From Bacteroidota bacterium (lineage in GTDB: Bacteria > Bacteroidota > Bacteroidia > Bacteroidales > Prolixibacteraceae), in NCBI GenBank assembly GCA_023251435.1, contig JAHEYU010000008.1, positions 1-64,000 of the forward strand: a stretch of DNA of 64,000 nt, read 5' to 3'. How positions within the stretch are numbered: position 1 is the stretch's first letter; each line of letters begins with the position of its first letter. Below, piece after piece: positions 2,692 through 64,000 of this stretch. The position numbers and the translations under genes were made by a program. The notes below the pieces were generated by a model. That model was not told the DNA's origin. It did no database searches and was given only the letters and a program-made list of their open reading frames with translations.

Positions 2692-2738
2692 GATCAGTGT
2701 TTATTTGTAGGTATAATTACAAATTGGATGGTAAATGG

Positions 2739-3032
2739 TTATAGCTTAAGGTTTTTATTATCCTGATAATTATTCCAAAAACGAAGTAATTCTATTGTAT
2801 CAGATTCGATATGCCTGTAATAAAGTGTAATTTGTTTGCAAACCACACATTGTTTAATATCCAAATAGCCACATTCTTTGAATTCAACATTGCCTTGTCT
2901 TAAATTGAAAATTAGCGAATCAACATCTGTAATAAAATTAATTGCATCTCTATCAGACCATTTGCTTAACAGATAGTCAATATTCTCATGATAATCACGC
3001 ATAGCTAAATCATTCCAGACTATCATTTTCAT
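2739..3032 (-). CDS. RelE/ParE-family toxin
   Basis: A 97-residue basic/aromatic protein with the ParE-type layout: an N-terminal strand (IVWNDLAMRDYHENIDYLLSKW) leading into two helices, a middle NLRQGNVEF segment, and a C-terminal YYRHIESDTIELLRFWNNYQ strand pair. ParE members poison gyrase and RelE members cut ribosomal mRNA; the sequence alone does not say which. The gene abuts the upstream antitoxin with no gap (its ATG follows directly on the antitoxin stop), the standard arrangement for a type II module. Confidence 0.75.
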   Translation of the reverse strand: MKMIVWNDLAMRDYHENIDYLLSKWSDRDAINFITDVDSLIFNLRQGNVEFKECGYLDIKQCVVCKQITLYYRHIESDTIELLRFWNNYQDNKNLKL

Positions 3033-3278
3033 CTAAAACAATTTAGAGTATTTCTCTTTCGTTTTTTGCATCACGTCCTCGTGAGAATGAATTTGTCCCT
3101 TTTTGCTGGCATCTATCGCCTCTTCGAGTGCTACTTTTAACTCTTGATTCATCGTCGATTCACTTAACGAAGCGGAATTTAGTAAGCCAACAAGGCTGTT
3201 ATAGATTTTCTCTAATTTGCTGTTATCGAGATTATCTATTTTACGGAATAGTTCCAATTTTATTTCGGCTGAATTCAT
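3033..3278 (-). CDS. Antitoxin of the ParE-type module
   Basis: An 81-residue predicted helical, charged protein directly upstream of the toxin. Its C-terminal part (LKVALEEAIDASKKGQIHSHEDVMQKTKEKY, shown here in outline at about residues 47-77) resembles the toxin-wrapping tail of ParD/addiction-module antitoxins of Bacteroidota. I see no clear ribbon-helix-helix at the N-terminus, so whether it binds its own promoter is open. The call rests mainly on context and size. Confidence 0.65.
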   Translation of the reverse strand: MNSAEIKLELFRKIDNLDNSKLEKIYNSLVGLLNSASLSESTMNQELKVALEEAIDASKKGQIHSHEDVMQKTKEKYSKLF

Positions 3279-3301
3279 AATTTTAACTTTTAATCCTTAG
3301 A

Positions 3302-3309
3302 CAAACTTA
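3302..3309 (-). promoter_or_regulatory. -7 element of the toxin-antitoxin promoter
   Basis: Minus-strand TAAGTTTG matches the Bacteroidota -7 consensus TAnnTTTG, 23 bp upstream of the antitoxin start. No clear -33 TTTG is visible. Confidence 0.45.
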
Positions 3310-3473
3310 ACGATTATTTTTTTCTTTTAGTAATTATCGTTTGCAGGGAAACATTGCTCTTTCATGGGGAAGAGCCCTTGTTTTCAATTGTTTTCCAGTA
3401 ATCATTATCAGGCTTTCAATACAAATTATCAGGCTTGTTTAGAATGAGAACTTTGAATCACTAATTTTACCCA

Positions 3474-3953
3474 ATGGCTTTAAGCAACTTCGAACGATTG
3501 ATACAACTGGCCGACAAGGTGTTTGCCGTGAAAAGCGATCCCAATCAACTCGATGTAAACCCGGAAGTACTGGAACGGCTGCATCAGATCCATCCGGACA
3601 CGGTTTCGGCGCACGACGAAGGAAACGGACCGGTAGCATGGGTTTTACTTATCCCAACCACAATTGGTTTAATGAAGCGGTTTCTGGAATCGGAAATTTC
3701 AGAAAAAGAACTCTTCGAACTAACCCCGCTGAACGTCAGCTACGACGCCATTTACCTGTGTTCGGCTCTGGTCCTGGAAGAATATCGCCGCAAAGGAATC
3801 ACCAAACAACTGGCGCTGGCTGCTATTGAAAGCATCAGAAAAAAATATCCGTTAAAAGTAGCTTTTGTATGGGCTTTCAGTCCTGAAGGAGATAAGGCTG
3901 CTGAAATGATTGCCCGACTGGCTGGGCTGCCGCTGCTTAAACGGGGGAAATAA
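3474..3953 (+). CDS. GNAT-family N-acetyltransferase
   Basis: A 159-residue cytoplasmic protein. The acetyl-CoA-binding motif A is seen as SALVLEEYRRKGITKQLALAAIE (outline; the RRKGIT loop is near residues 108-113), following a beta strand YDAIYLCSALV. Such enzymes move an acetyl group from acetyl-CoA to an amine; the substrate is not predictable. It ends 67 bp before the GH8 gene on the same strand, but nothing ties the two functionally. Confidence 0.75.
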   Translation: MALSNFERLIQLADKVFAVKSDPNQLDVNPEVLERLHQIHPDTVSAHDEGNGPVAWVLLIPTTIGLMKRFLESEISEKELFELTPLNVSYDAIYLCSALVLEEYRRKGITKQLALAAIESIRKKYPLKVAFVWAFSPEGDKAAEMIARLAGLPLLKRGK

Positions 3954-4020
3954 AACGTTAACAAAGAGCATTTCATACAATAATATTTTACTTTTAAAGC
4001 CTGAACCTAACCCAAGTAAT

Positions 4021-5340
4021 ATGAAAAAAATACTTTGTTTCGCCATACTGACTTTTATGCTCAGCATTTTCTGTTTAGCACAAACAGTAACACCTTATCC
4101 TGACTGCAATAAAGATGTGAAAGATAGACGGGGAAAGATGAAACCCTGGACCAAAGGAGCCCACGAAACCGGAAAATACCGTAATGTATTTCTTGAAGCC
4201 GGATACAGCCAGGCAAATATTGACGCCAAACTCACCAAAGCTTATCAAGATCTTTTTGAGGGGCCCAACCGGGTATATTTCGAAGTAGGGGACTCAATGG
4301 CCTATGTTTCGGACCTGAAAAACAACGATTGTCGCACCGAAGGACTTTCCTATGGCCTGATGGTGGCGGTGCAACTCGATAAAAAAGAGGTTTTTGACAA
4401 GTTGTGGAGATGGACAAAAAAATACATGCAACATCAGGGAGGAGCCCGCGATGCCTATTTTGCCTGGAGTGTCAACAATAAAACCTTCAAGCAAAACTCA
4501 CCGGGTTCGGCCTCCGATGGTGAATTGTATTTTGTTACTGCTCTGATTTTTGCCTCCAACCGTTGGGGAAACGAAACCGGATTTAATTACTACGCCGAAG
4601 CCCGCCGTATTCTGGATGCCATGTGGAAAAAGGACGGCACCGGAGGTGTAATGAATGTACTGAACACCGAACACAAGCAAATCACCTTTGTGCCCGACAA
4701 AGGTGGCTATGGCTGGACCGACCCGTCGTACCACTTACCTGCCTTTTACGAGGTTTGGGCCGAATATGCCAAAGACGGACACGAACAGTTTTACCGCGAT
4801 TGTGCCGATACTGCCCGGGTTTTCCTGCACCGTGCCTGTAATCGGGAAAATGCACTAAATTCTGACTACAGCGATTTTAGCGGAAAACCACGAAATTTCT
4901 GGAGAATGCAACCGGCCTTCCGTTACGATTCGTGGCGGGTACCCATGAACATTGCCATGGATTATTCGTGGTATGCCAAAGACACCAAATGGCAGCAGGA
5001 TTATGGCAAACGGTTCCAGAATTTCCTCTTCTGCCGGGGCATCGATACCTTCGAAGATCAGTTTATGATGGATGGATCATTACCGGAACAGAAAGAAATT
5101 CTTGGTGCTGGCGGATTCCAAAAACTAAGGCATTCACTGGGATTGGTATCCACTTCAGCCGCTGCCTCCATCATGGGTACACAGGCTAAAAGCTGGAAAT
5201 TTGTGGATGCGGTGTGGAATGCCAAACTCGAACCTTACGAAGATGGCTATTTTGATCCGTATTACGATGGTCTGCTCTACCTGTTCAGCATGATGCACCT
5301 TAGTGGAAATTACCGGATTATTACACCGGGGATGAAATAA
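4021..5340 (+). CDS. Glycoside hydrolase family 8, exo-oligoxylanase type
   Basis: 439 residues from ATG 4021; this start gives a clean signal peptide (residues 1-20, FCLA/Q cleavage), whereas an upstream in-frame ATG at 3910 would overlap the GNAT gene and bury the signal. The GH8 inverting machinery is visible: RTEGLSYGLM with general acid Glu107, SASDGELYF with Asp166, and AMDYSWYAKD with the probable base Asp314. The closest architecture I know is reducing-end xylose-releasing exo-oligoxylanase (Rex), which trims xylo-oligosaccharides; ours is longer by the signal peptide and N-terminal extension. It is not part of the SusCD locus downstream. GH8 is firm; xylose specificity is inferred. 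Confidence 0.88.
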   Translation: MKKILCFAILTFMLSIFCLAQTVTPYPDCNKDVKDRRGKMKPWTKGAHETGKYRNVFLEAGYSQANIDAKLTKAYQDLFEGPNRVYFEVGDSMAYVSDLKNNDCRTEGLSYGLMVAVQLDKKEVFDKLWRWTKKYMQHQGGARDAYFAWSVNNKTFKQNSPGSASDGELYFVTALIFASNRWGNETGFNYYAEARRILDAMWKKDGTGGVMNVLNTEHKQITFVPDKGGYGWTDPSYHLPAFYEVWAEYAKDGHEQFYRDCADTARVFLHRACNRENALNSDYSDFSGKPRNFWRMQPAFRYDSWRVPMNIAMDYSWYAKDTKWQQDYGKRFQNFLFCRGIDTFEDQFMMDGSLPEQKEILGAGGFQKLRHSLGLVSTSAAASIMGTQAKSWKFVDAVWNAKLEPYEDGYFDPYYDGLLYLFSMMHLSGNYRIITPGMK

Positions 5341-29414: not shown

Positions 29415-29422
29415 TACTTTTG
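29415..29422 (+). promoter_or_regulatory. -7 element before the PepSY gene
   Basis: TACTTTTG fits TAnnTTTG and is followed by GCAGC; it lies 20 bp before the ATG at 29442. Confidence 0.45.
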
Positions 29423-29441: not shown

Positions 29442-30989
29442 ATGACAAAAAACGACCTACTCAGAAAACTCCGGAAGTTCCATAAATGGCCGGGAATATT
29501 AATTACACTGTTTGTAATACTCTTTTCCATCTCCGGAATTTTCATGAATCACCGGAGCCTGATTTCTGCTGTAGATATTAAACGGGCAATACTACCCGAC
29601 GACTATAGTTATCAGAACTGGAACAAAGCGGCTGTAAAATCAGTCTGTCATCTTGGCGGCGATTCGTCGCTGGTGTACGGAAACATCGGAATCTGGCTCA
29701 GCACCGACAATTTCAACACTTTTCAGGATTGGAATGCCGGTTTTCCAAAAGGAATCGACAACCGTAAAATCAGCAAAATCATAAAAGCTCCCGATGGAAA
29801 ATTGTTTACCGGAACGTATTTCGGCTTGTATCAATATTCGGTTCAGGAACACAAATGGCAAAAAGTGATACTTCCCGTCTCCGAAGAAAGGATTACCGAT
29901 TTGATCATAAAGCAGAATGAGCTGATCGTTCAAACTCGTTCGTTTTTGCTGAAAAGTGGCGATGGAAAAGTATTTCATTCCATTTCCATTCCGGCGCCTG
30001 TTAACAATGATCAGAAAGTGAGTTTGTTCAAAACCCTTTGGTTGCTGCACAGCGGCGAATTATTTGGTCTGACCGGAAAACTGATGGTCGATTTATTTGG
30101 CGTGGCGATACTGATTATTTCGCTAACAGGATTACTGCACTTTATTTTTCCCGGATGGCTGAAACGCCGGAAAGCAAAACAAAAAAGCAACACTTCTGTA
30201 ATCGCAGCCCGAAACACCAATCTGAGCTGGCACAATCGTCTGGGTTGGATTTTTATTCCTTTCCTGATTTTTGTGACCATTACAGGAATGTTTTTGCGCC
30301 CTCCACTGCTCATTGCGATTGCCAACTCAGTAGTTTCACCCATTCCCGGAACAGTATTGAGCTCACCAAACCCTTGGTACGACAAGCTTCGACGAGTTGC
30401 ATACGACGAAGAGCAACGAATTTTCCTGTTCTCTACAAACGACGGGTTCTTTTTTACCGACGAAAATTTTGAAAGCCCGATGCGACAACCCATGAACCAG
30501 CCACCGGTGAGTGTGATGGGCTGCAATGTACTTGAAAAAAAAGGGGAAAATACGTATCTGGTAGGATCGTTCAACGGCCTGTTTCTTTGGAATCCGTTGA
30601 CCGGTCAGGTAGCAGATTATCTCTCCGGAAGCCATTATCAGGCGCCGCAAGTAGCAGGTCCGCCCATTTCGAAAGACATGATCGACGGATGGTTTGCTGA
30701 TCATTCAGGAAATGAATTCTATTTCGACTACAATTATGGTGTTTTACCCATACGGACGAACGCCTCGTTTGGCGAAATGAGTCCTGAAATCATCAGCAAA
30801 AGTCCGATTTCATTGTGGAACCTCTCGCTCGAAGTTCACACCGGCCGCATATTCGAACCTCTTTTGGGTATGTTTTACATACTGTACGTTCCACTTGCCG
30901 GAATCTGCATTTTGATTGTGCTGATCAGCGGATTCTTTATCTGGTGGATTGGGTACCGGAGAAAATCAAAGGGTAAAAAAGCACCCTGA
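29442..30989 (+). CDS. PepSY-associated transmembrane protein
   Basis: 515 residues of the PepSY-TM type. The N-terminal helix LRKFHKWPGILITLFVILFSISGIF (outline, about 9-33) has the family's H-x-W/P start. Further helices are at about 210-235 (FGVAILIISLTGLLHFIFPGWL), about 263-283 (SWHNRLGWIFIPFLIFVTITGMF outline) and about 483-508. Between helices 1-2 and 3-4 are large periplasmic segments rich in propeller-like repeats (SGDGKVFHSI, NDGFFFTDENFESPM). Related proteins act in iron/siderophore reduction or sulfite-like redox; the role here is unproven. A palindromic repeat directly after the stop likely ends the transcript. Confidence 0.75.
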   Translation: MTKNDLLRKLRKFHKWPGILITLFVILFSISGIFMNHRSLISAVDIKRAILPDDYSYQNWNKAAVKSVCHLGGDSSLVYGNIGIWLSTDNFNTFQDWNAGFPKGIDNRKISKIIKAPDGKLFTGTYFGLYQYSVQEHKWQKVILPVSEERITDLIIKQNELIVQTRSFLLKSGDGKVFHSISIPAPVNNDQKVSLFKTLWLLHSGELFGLTGKLMVDLFGVAILIISLTGLLHFIFPGWLKRRKAKQKSNTSVIAARNTNLSWHNRLGWIFIPFLIFVTITGMFLRPPLLIAIANSVVSPIPGTVLSSPNPWYDKLRRVAYDEEQRIFLFSTNDGFFFTDENFESPMRQPMNQPPVSVMGCNVLEKKGENTYLVGSFNGLFLWNPLTGQVADYLSGSHYQAPQVAGPPISKDMIDGWFADHSGNEFYFDYNYGVLPIRTNASFGEMSPEIISKSPISLWNLSLEVHTGRIFEPLLGMFYILYVPLAGICILIVLISGFFIWWIGYRRKSKGKKAP

Positions 30990-36250: not shown

Positions 36251-37069
36251 GTGGAAATTAATCAATACATAAAAGAGCTGCTGTTGCTGAATGATTGCGT
36301 GATCATTCCTGAATTCGGTGGATTTGTTGCCAATTACAAACCGGCAACCATCGAAAACAATCAGTTTTACCCGCCATCAAAAGAAATAGCTTTCAACAAC
36401 AAACTGAATTCCAACGACGGTTTGCTAATAAATTACATTTCTGAAGCAGAAGGAGTCGACTATTTCAGCGCAAGGCAAAAACTCGACAGTTTTGTTGAAG
36501 AAACTAACCTTAATCTCGAACGCAACCGGAATGTACATTTCGAAGGCGTAGGTTATCTGCATTACGATTCGCGCGAAAACCTATTGTTCGAACCTCAGTT
36601 GCGACAAAATTTGCTGGTTGATTCTTATGGATTACAGAATTTCTCGTACGAAAAACTTTACCAAAGGCAAATGCCCAAACCAGCCTTTAAGGTTGAGTAC
36701 CTTGAGCCTGTTCCTGTTATTTTTCAGAAACGCAAACTGAAAAAACTGGTTGTCGCCCTTCCGTTACTTATGGCAATGGCACTTATCCCGATGAAAAACA
36801 ACAAGGAATACCTTTCTAAATCGGATATGGGAATGTGGGAAGCATTCACCCAAAGCGCCCCAACTGCAACGGTACAATTGTCAGAAGAAACCACTGCAGA
36901 ATATGTCGCAAATGCAACTGCTACGGAACAAAGTCAATTCAATTATTACATTATTGGTGGAAGTTTCAAGAGTGAAGAAAATGCCAATAAATACCTTCAG
37001 CAGTTAAAAGAACAAGGTTTTGAAGGACAAAATCTTGGCGTTTTTAAAGGTTGCACCGCATTGCAATGA
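36251..37069 (+). CDS. HU-CCDC81/SPOR domain protein, frameshifted near its end
   Basis: 272 residues from a GTG at 36251. The N-terminus is the paired CCDC81-like HU domain of Bacteroidota (INQYIKELLLLNDCVIIPEF, then GGFVANYKPA and NVHFEGVGYLHYDSRENLLFEP outline). A membrane helix (about 158-175, LKKLVVALPLLMAMALIP) is followed by a linker and a SPOR domain (about 228-272, YYIIGGSFKSEENANKYLQQ) that should bind denuded peptidoglycan at division sites. The frame stops inside SPOR; the missing half continues at 37051-37164 in another frame, indicating loss of one T in GGTTTG near 37050. So the gene is mutated or the sequence has an error. Confidence 0.8.
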   Translation: MEINQYIKELLLLNDCVIIPEFGGFVANYKPATIENNQFYPPSKEIAFNNKLNSNDGLLINYISEAEGVDYFSARQKLDSFVEETNLNLERNRNVHFEGVGYLHYDSRENLLFEPQLRQNLLVDSYGLQNFSYEKLYQRQMPKPAFKVEYLEPVPVIFQKRKLKKLVVALPLLMAMALIPMKNNKEYLSKSDMGMWEAFTQSAPTATVQLSEETTAEYVANATATEQSQFNYYIIGGSFKSEENANKYLQQLKEQGFEGQNLGVFKGCTALQ

Positions 37070-53827: not shown

Positions 53828-53956
53828 CTAGTGTTAAGTTAATGATCTTTTGACACAGCGTCATACCGAACTTGTTTCGGCATCCCTTATATGTGGGACC
53901 CCGAAATAAATTCGGGGTGACTGGGATCCGACAAAATCGAGTTAACACAACACTAG
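53828..53956. mobile_element. MITE-like element carrying REP palindromes
   Basis: 129 bp bounded by inverted ends: CTAGTGTTAAGTTAA on the left and the reverse complement of CTAGTGTTGTGTTAA on the right (13 of 15 match). Inside are ATACCGAA/TTCGGCAT (53863-53883) and ACCCCGAA-ATAAA-TTCGGGGT (53898-53918); the latter is the inverted form of the palindrome at 30998-31018. No coding sequence, no clear target duplication. The rest of the 53584-54092 gap shows no gene. Confidence 0.55.
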
Positions 53957-53982
53957 TTCAATATTCCATTAAGGGTTGCAAA

Positions 53983-61280: not shown

Positions 61281-61423
61281 CTGCCATACCCTGCCTGCAA
61301 AGGCAGAAATTGTTTCTACCACAGTTTACCCAGATAAGCACAGATTGAAAACTCATTTGATTGTTTTTAATCTATGAAAATTAGTGTAATCTGTGGTAGA
61401 AACTTTTGTTTTCTTACTGCAGA

Positions 61424-63667
61424 TTAATTCTTTTTATGCGACCAGCCAGTTTGAAGCCCAATCATAAAATAGATCAGTGCCACTACCCCGGCAGCAAATA
61501 TTGTATCGCCCACTATTCGCATCCAGCGAAGTGTGGCCATCCAGGGCAACTGCAGAAAATCAGCAGAACGTGCATACCACAAGCCATGTTTCACACTTGC
61601 CCATGTTTGAGCCAGACCTATGGGTAAAACACTGATCAGGACCATGAGCAGCAAGCCAATATTAATAGCCCAAAACGAGAGTTTAATGACTTTATCGCTC
61701 CACTCATTTTTGTGGTTCATTTCACGCAGTACAAACAAAGTCAAACCGATTCCCAGCATACCGTAAACGCCAAACAAGGCGGTATGAGCGTGTACCGGAG
61801 TGGTATTGAGTCCCTGCATGTAATACAATGCAATAGGCGGATTAATCACAAACCCGAAGATTCCGGCGCCAAGGAAATTCCAGAAAGCGACTGCCAAAAA
61901 GAAATTGATCGGCCATCTATAGGCTTCCACCCAACTCGCCGCTCTCTTAAGTTGGAGGTTGCCCCATGCTTCAAACCCGATCAGAATCAGTGGAACTACT
62001 TCCAGGGCGCTGAAGCTTGACCCGAGAGCCAGTATGGAGGTTGGTGTTCCGGAGAAATAGAGGTGATGAAAGGTTCCGAGAATTCCTCCAAAAAGGAATA
62101 CGATGGTCGAAAACAGCACAGTCGTGGTGGCGTATTGTACCTTGATAAGTTCCATGCGCACGAACAGATAAGCTATGATAACCGTAGCAAATACTTCGAA
62201 GAAGCCTTCGACCCAGAGGTGAACCACCCACCAGCGCCAGTATTCGGCAATGGCAAGGTTTGTATGTTGACCCCACATCATTCCGGCGCCGTAAAAACCG
62301 GCAATGGCAATACACGAAATCAGAAATAATATTAACAACTGCTTGCTGTCTGAACGACCTTTCAAAGCTGGTACAATGGCACGGGTCATCAGGAACAACC
62401 ACAAGAACAACCCAACCAGAAGGAAAATCTGCCAAAAACGGCCAAGATCCACGTATTCATATCCCTGATGTCCAAACCAGAAGTTGGTCACATAACCCAG
62501 TTTCTGCATAATGGCCATGAACTGTCCGGCCATTGATCCGCCGACAATAATCAGAAGTGCAATGAACAGGAAGTTGACTCCCCAAACCTGAAATTTAGGA
62601 TCTTTTCCACCGATGGCCGGAGCAAAGAACAGCCCTGTTGCCAGCCACGAGGTTGCAATCCAGAAAATTCCCATCTGAACATGCCATGTTCGCGACAACG
62701 AATAGGGCAGGTAGTCGGCCAGATTAAAGCCGTAAAAGGCAGTTCCTTCCACGCCGTAATGGACTGTAATGATTCCCATCCCTATCTGAACAAGGAACAA
62801 GAGCATCACCACATAGAAATATTTCAGCGTTGCCTTCATCGAAGGAAGTATTTGCAACCCTATTACGGGATTCGTGGCTGGAATCGTGTCAGATAATTCT
62901 TCATGACGGTTCGACACATAATACCATGTCAGCAGTCCAATTCCTGCCAGCAAAATAATCACACTGAAACCTGTCCAAAGTACCAGCGCGCTTGTTGGCC
63001 GGTTACCCACCAACTCCTCGGCTGGCCAGTTATTGGTATAGGTGATGTCTGAATCAACGCGGTTGGTGGTCGTGGCCCATGATGTCCAAAAGAAAAAGCT
63101 AGCCATCTTTGCCATTCTATCTGCATCCTTTACCGTATTGGCGGGCATTCCATAAGCTTCGCGAAGCGCATGCTGGTCAACGCCATCCATAAACAGTTCG
63201 GTGTAAAATTGCTGAACCAGGGCAATTGCTTCGGCTCTGTGGTCAGAAACTACCAAATCGCCACTGCTTACATTGTAGGTGTTTTTGCGAATCTCGCTTT
63301 GCAGTCTGGCTTTTAATGCAGCTTGCTTCTCTAAATCGAGCTTTGCAAATTCAGTACTGTCGTCAACAAAGGCAAAATGATTTAGCATGGCAATTGCTTC
63401 TTTGTGAAGCCAATCAGCTGACCAATCGGGTGCCTGGTAAGCTCCATGTCCCCAAATTGACCCCAGTTCCTGTCCGCCAATTGATTGCCAAACATTTTGT
63501 CAATCCTTGATATCCTGGGCTGTAAACAATACTTTTCCTGAAGTGGTAACAACCCTTTCAGGAATTGGGGGAGCCTTGCGATAAATTTCACGGCCAAAAA
63601 ATAGCAGTACGGCAAATGAAATAACCATTACGGCCGTAAAACCAATCCATAATTTTTTTGTACTCAT
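61424..63667 (-). pseudogene. norZ: Quinol-dependent nitric oxide reductase interrupted by in-frame TGA
   Basis: 748 codons from ATG 63665-63667, the length of qNOR. Residues 1-55 (membrane anchor KLWIGFTAVMVISFAVLLFFG) run into a TGA at 63500-63502 (codon 56). Translation resumes in the same frame with QNVWQSIGGQELGSIWGHG and APDWSADWLHKEAIAMLNHF, the conserved qNOR quinol-side region; the family has Gly at the TGA, so one G to T change (GGA to TGA) explains it. Downstream is a normal 12-14 helix subunit with haem/FeB ligands (WGHQGYEY, GQHTNLAI, WVVHLWVEGFFEVF with Glu, FHHLYFSG, HAHTALFG). It reduces NO to N2O with quinol. Possibly an error, a mutation or readthrough. Confidence 0.88.
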
Positions 63668-63745: not shown

Positions 63746-63777
63746 GTGGAGTATTTTATCCACTATAGAGTAAAATA
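63746..63777. promoter_or_regulatory. Nested palindromes, candidate Rrf2 operator
   Basis: GTGGA-N8-TCCAC (63746-63763) and TATTTTA-N12-TAAAATA (63752-63777) overlap upstream of the tandem -7 elements, between the NO reductase and the divergent Rrf2 gene. Position and symmetry suit binding of a dimeric regulator. Confidence 0.45.
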
Positions 63778-63863: not shown

Positions 63864-64000
63864 ATGCTATCAAAAGCCGCTGAATACGCGATACGATCCA
63901 TGGTTTATATATGGATGATGAATCAACAGGGCACGCGCCCCGGTTACCGCACCATTGCTACTGAAGTTGGCTCACCAGAGCACTTTACGGCAAAAGTGCT
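63864..64000 (+). CDS. Rrf2-family transcription regulator, partial
   Basis: First 45 codons only, cut by the right edge. MLSKAAEYAIRSMVYIWMMN followed by GYRTIATEVGSPEHFTAKVL matches the Rrf2 winged helix (MxS-x-x-x-YAxR start, IA-x-x-x-x-x-P-x-x-F-x-x-KVL). Family members NsrR and IscR sense NO or Fe-S status through a [2Fe-2S] or [4Fe-4S] cluster; the cysteines would lie beyond the edge. Divergence from an NO reductase suggests an NO-responsive repressor. Confidence 0.85.
   Translation, partial: MLSKAAEYAIRSMVYIWMMNQQGTRPGYRTIATEVGSPEHFTAKV

Follow-up and report, generated by a model that had tools for sequence, protein, structure and literature searches.

A single in-frame TGA in an otherwise intact quinol-type nitric oxide reductase gene: sequence error or very recent nonsense mutation?

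A gene for a quinol-dependent nitric oxide reductase (qNOR) is interrupted by a stop codon in the 64,000-nucleotide stretch of Bacteroidota DNA analysed here (the window), which raises the question of whether the cells have lost the enzyme, manage to translate past the stop, or carry an ordinary gene that is misrepresented in the assembly. The gene lies on the minus strand at 61424–63667 and comprises 747 codons and a stop. Counted from the ATG at 63667–63665, codon 56 is TGA (63502–63500), followed by a C, and it is the only internal stop in the frame. Upstream of it is an N-terminal piece of 55 codons (63503–63667), in which a first hydrophobic helix was recognized by eye from the sequence; downstream, the next in-frame ATG (63388) opens an ORF of 654 amino acids (61424–63388).

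Around the stop, the window's protein reads ...FTAQDIKD*QNVWQSIGGQELG, and those of its relatives G011, G002 and G015 read ...FTAQDIKDGQNVWQSIGGQELG. Residues 1–747 aligned to G011 with 97.1% identity, in one frame and free of gaps across the stop, so that the initial annotation of codon 56 as a TGA flanked on both sides by continuous qNOR was borne out. The 654-residue ORF contains positions 2–436 of the 436 in PF00115 (COX1-type) and positions 62–181 of the 181 in PF22085 (NorB cytochrome-c-like domain), and the 37 codons between the TGA and ATG 63388 match PF22085 positions 22–57. On these matches, the qNOR frame continues past the TGA. On its own, 63503–63664 had no Pfam match, and NCBIfam assigned neither the qNOR pieces nor the frame read with X to any family. 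The COX1-type domain and the N-terminal cytochrome-c-like domain thus share one frame, which is uninterrupted except for the TGA at codon 56. Judged by its sequence, the gene is a quinol-type NO reductase, otherwise intact, with NO reduction as its predicted activity. No further qNOR match was found in the same genome.

To see what other organisms carry at codon 56, as the initial annotation had proposed, we assembled 110 qNOR loci, comprising 30 of the 37 matches in 61 genomes (the window's own included) and 80 of 161 confirmed hits. Removal of six duplicates left 104 distinct sequences, 103 of which cover codon 56; the remaining one, L027, stops short of it. Most of the closest named records carry the label Prolixibacteraceae or Bacteroidota, and one is a Chitinophaga. 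All 102 other sequences have Gly at this position, and the stop occurs only in the window's own copy, which agrees with the claim that a conserved glycine had been replaced. The more specific claim, that GGA became TGA by one change, goes further than the comparison allows: the nearest relatives use GGG (G011 and G015), GGC (G002), GGT (G009 and G007) and GGA (G016), and any of these may have preceded the TGA.

The same set shows how well the front of the protein is kept. Including the window's own copy, 99 of the 104 distinct sequences give a single alignment that begins no later than residue 15 and reaches at least residue 730, and the front part of qNOR is therefore generally retained. Among the short alignments, those of L012 and L100 run into contig ends, that of L031 falls one residue under the threshold, and L027 is a fragment. 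In L026 (genome G058, near 1498), qNOR appears as two pieces with a frame change, residues 63–104 being unmatched. These observations bear on a restart at ATG 63388, which would yield a functional shortened reductase. The initial annotation had named two reinitiation products. The one starting at 63388 does exist as an ORF, and it holds a complete COX1-type domain, but the 55-residue peptide would be the terminated product rather than a reinitiated one. The restart ORF starts 37 codons past the stop, without the first hydrophobic helix and with the initial third of the cytochrome-c-like profile missing; this front is the very part that is kept in 99 of 104 sequences, and we consider a working restart product highly improbable.

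Could the UGA be read as an amino acid instead? UGA looks like a normal stop in this genome. Release factor RF2 is present, scoring 463.8 bits against a cut-off of 370. AGGAGG-CAT-CTTTGAC (L165, 418–433), with the classical UGA frameshift site, stands in the RF2 gene, and we take this to be the known RF2 autoregulatory arrangement. None of the 45 tRNAs detected has the anticodon TCA, and all 45 anticodons are ordinary; this set is incomplete, as scoring covered only 150 of the 403 candidates of the first look and Ala, Ile and Cys tRNAs went undetected. The SelA profile had no match in the genome, and the ten weak tRNA-Sec matches were all below the cut-off, seven of them coinciding with Ser or Leu tRNAs. 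The 42 window ORFs taken as genes end in TAA (26), TAG (9) and TGA (7), one of the seven being the shifted end of the ORF at 36251–37069, discussed below. An ORF does end with TGA at 30987–30989, the example given initially for UGA as a normal stop, and the accompanying statement that this genome does not use UGA for glycine is supported by the relatives, by the RF2 gene and by the tRNAs surveyed. No further TGA was found within the window ORFs of the 32 genes compared with G011. There is a precedent for such recoding, since UGA encodes glycine in Gracilibacteria and Absconditabacteria, according to the portion of PMC8629427 drawn on here. With neither loss nor change of RF2 seen, and no UGA-reading tRNA in the incomplete set of 45, recoding of the codon as glycine, tryptophan or selenocysteine was rejected as a candidate and is very improbable.

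A leaky stop would be a different matter, because it needs no change of code: a near-cognate tRNA would insert some residue at the UGA-C and give some full-length enzyme with residue 56 changed. UGA-C is a weak stop signal in E. coli. The C that follows the TGA fits this idea, and TGAC also occurs at the RF2 frameshift site of the same genome. Weakness of UGA-C has been described in non-bacterial reporters, in the part of PMC9841425 used here. Yet the stop is kept in none of the relatives compared (Gly in 102 of 102), and the replaced glycine is invariant in the set, so that the changed product may not work. Two candidate forms of directed readthrough were tried and rejected: a conserved or programmed stop, since no other copy compared has the TGA and conservation in orthologues is thus lacking, and a stimulatory hairpin, since there was no outstanding structure 3' of the stop (z −1.21). 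A tolerated leaky UGA-C, through which small amounts of full-length qNOR would be made with a residue other than Gly at position 56, so that purifying selection downstream continues, would also fit the absence of decay described next, but we regard it as very unlikely. Readthrough and restart, which the initial annotation had listed beside error and recent inactivation, thus received no positive support: the stop is not conserved, and the restart ORF is missing the helix and the cytochrome-c-like front.

If translation had ended at codon 56 for long, the rest of the gene should show it. The window qNOR is 91.5, 91.0 and 89.6% identical in DNA to those of G011, G002 and G015, with dN/dS values, computed with codon 56 left out, of 0.036, 0.037 and 0.035, respectively; among the three relatives, dN/dS is 0.033–0.036. 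Private codon changes (silent/replacement) number 26/3 in the window's copy, 26/1 in G011, 26/3 in G002 and 36/1 in G015. From the baseline of 5 per 88 in the three relatives, we derived a bound on the age of the change, which is a rough Poisson bound rather than a codon-model test. Had 10% of the branch been unconstrained, about 10.3 replacements would be expected, against the 3 private ones seen (P about 0.009), whereas 5% is compatible with the data (P 0.16). By this reckoning, it is unlikely that a real inactivation dates back further than about a tenth of the lineage's branch. The lack of decay in the rest of qNOR leaves two candidates, an error in the consensus or a nonsense mutation of very recent date, both already proposed in the initial annotation. 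No relaxed constraint is seen in the window qNOR, and the expectation is the same under either.

A very recent nonsense allele, in which UGA ends translation, leaving a 55-residue stub and no working qNOR, is a serious possibility, although we rate it somewhat below an even chance. The TGA is the sole defect in the gene, with no insertion or deletion relative to G011, and RF2 and ordinary tRNAs are present. Loss also seems tolerable: qNOR is matched in 19 of the 22 same-genus genomes and has no match in G005, G014 and G019, which are 99, 93 and 98% complete, respectively. Loss of qNOR within the same-genus group is plausible. The window's genome encodes Hcp (746.6 bits) and an NrfA-type cytochrome (604.4 bits), which also count in favour of the allele; the NosZ profile gave no match above the cut-off in the genome (27.2 bits against 625). 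Against the allele stands the absence of relaxed constraint, with 26 silent and 3 replacement private changes, which would confine the event to a short, late part of the branch.

The alternative is that the TGA is a base-calling, consensus or strain-mixing error. The genome is a draft of 148 contigs and is probably metagenome-derived. A comparison with G011 over the window and an adjoining stretch, at 70% identity or more, gave 33 rows representing 32 genes with an aligned G011 counterpart, one gene being split in G011. In the window's genome, breaks affect two of the 32: qNOR and the gene at 36251–37069 (plus strand), which encodes HU-CCDC81 and SPOR domains. Relative to G011, the latter lacks one base near 37051; past this point, the well-kept end of the SPOR domain continues in another frame with good similarity. 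This frame change is as fresh as the qNOR stop. Stops at 29418, 37452 and 54096, flagged through the G011 ORFs, were dismissed, as they lie upstream of the window's own ORF starts.

Isolated breaks are found in related drafts as well. G011 itself has an in-frame TAG (L113, 1796–1798) in the Mrp-type gene that adjoins qNOR; this Mrp-type gene spans 1202–2314 of L113, and at its codon 199 the TAG stands where the window, G015 and G009 have TCG. In the metagenome-derived record L093, the qNOR match (2722–4968) has an in-frame TGA aligned to Trp-479 of the window qNOR. Among the 80 database records, assigned by hand from their titles, an internal qNOR stop occurs in 0 of 18 isolate and 1 of 62 metagenome-derived records, a contrast that says little. 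A Thr-Tyr-Gly tRNA cluster is present twice in the window's assembly (L126/L146 on contig 76 of G000 and L127/L147 on contig 145); it was discarded as a sign of mixed strains, the two copies matching at 97.7% over 350 bp only.

In these drafts, fresh isolated breaks are thus no rarity; this speaks for error but does not prove it. Two observations make us lean that way: the one-base frame change at 36251–37069 looks no older than the qNOR stop, and two further metagenome-derived genomes carry isolated stops, L093 in qNOR and G011 in the Mrp-type gene. For 32 genes under strong constraint, two fresh breaks would be many if they were real mutations, and we infer that the marks in qNOR and 36251–37069 are errors rather than young mutations. 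On the other side, 30 of the 32 genes show no break, and a very young true mutation would look identical. On balance, an error in the draft assembly is slightly favoured overall and is a likelier explanation than a very young nonsense allele. If it is an error, qNOR in the cells themselves is probably ordinary and functional.

Divergent from qNOR, the gene of an Rrf2-family regulator of 149 amino acids starts at 63864 on the plus strand and runs on past the end of the window (64000) in the same contig. The initial annotation had called it a probable NO-responsive regulator. The gene is real and its reading frame is open, but NO-responsiveness is not shown: the product scores 69.7 bits on the general Rrf2 model (cut-off 73.3) and 27.7 bits on NsrR (cut-off 182). 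Upstream of qNOR, at 63746–63763 (minus strand), genome comparison revealed a dyad, GTGGA-N8-TCCAC, that is a candidate operator. Its arms are exact in five of six genomes, the window's own included, and altered in G015; its distance from the qNOR start is 78 bp in the window's genome, G011, G009 and G002, and 77 bp in G016. Directly 3' of the qNOR stop, at about 61303–61415, is a dispersed repeat, about 100 bp long and inverted at its ends, with many similar pieces in relatives; a second, of about 100–130 bp, lies at about 53830–53960 and has many matches in G011 and others.

The practical consequence is one of caution: a single base would make automatic annotation report a truncated qNOR for this genome. 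Were the allele real, respiratory NO reduction would have been lost very recently, with the neighbouring regulator and candidate operator retained. Broken NO reductase genes may well have been published before.

Compared with known systems, the intact, 97% identical relative in L003, which was used for this test in place of the broken copy, aligns with solved qNOR chains (such as 8bgw, 6qq5, 6fwf and 3ayf) nearly throughout, over residues 4–742 of 747 (best-chain E 1.8e-260); the solved chain has Gly at the aligned place where the window copy has its stop. The glycine code of Gracilibacteria and Absconditabacteria is similar in having UGA where Gly is expected, but the window's genome differs in having one such site only, with RF2 present and no UGA-reading tRNA detected. 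Recent bacterial nonsense pseudogenes share the single disabling change and the intact orthologues in sister species; the window qNOR departs from them in showing no relaxed constraint, and here the two cases, pseudogene and error, are indistinguishable. The pattern also matches the single-base consensus errors of draft and metagenome-derived genomes: an isolated stop and an isolated one-base frame change, in genes that are otherwise kept.
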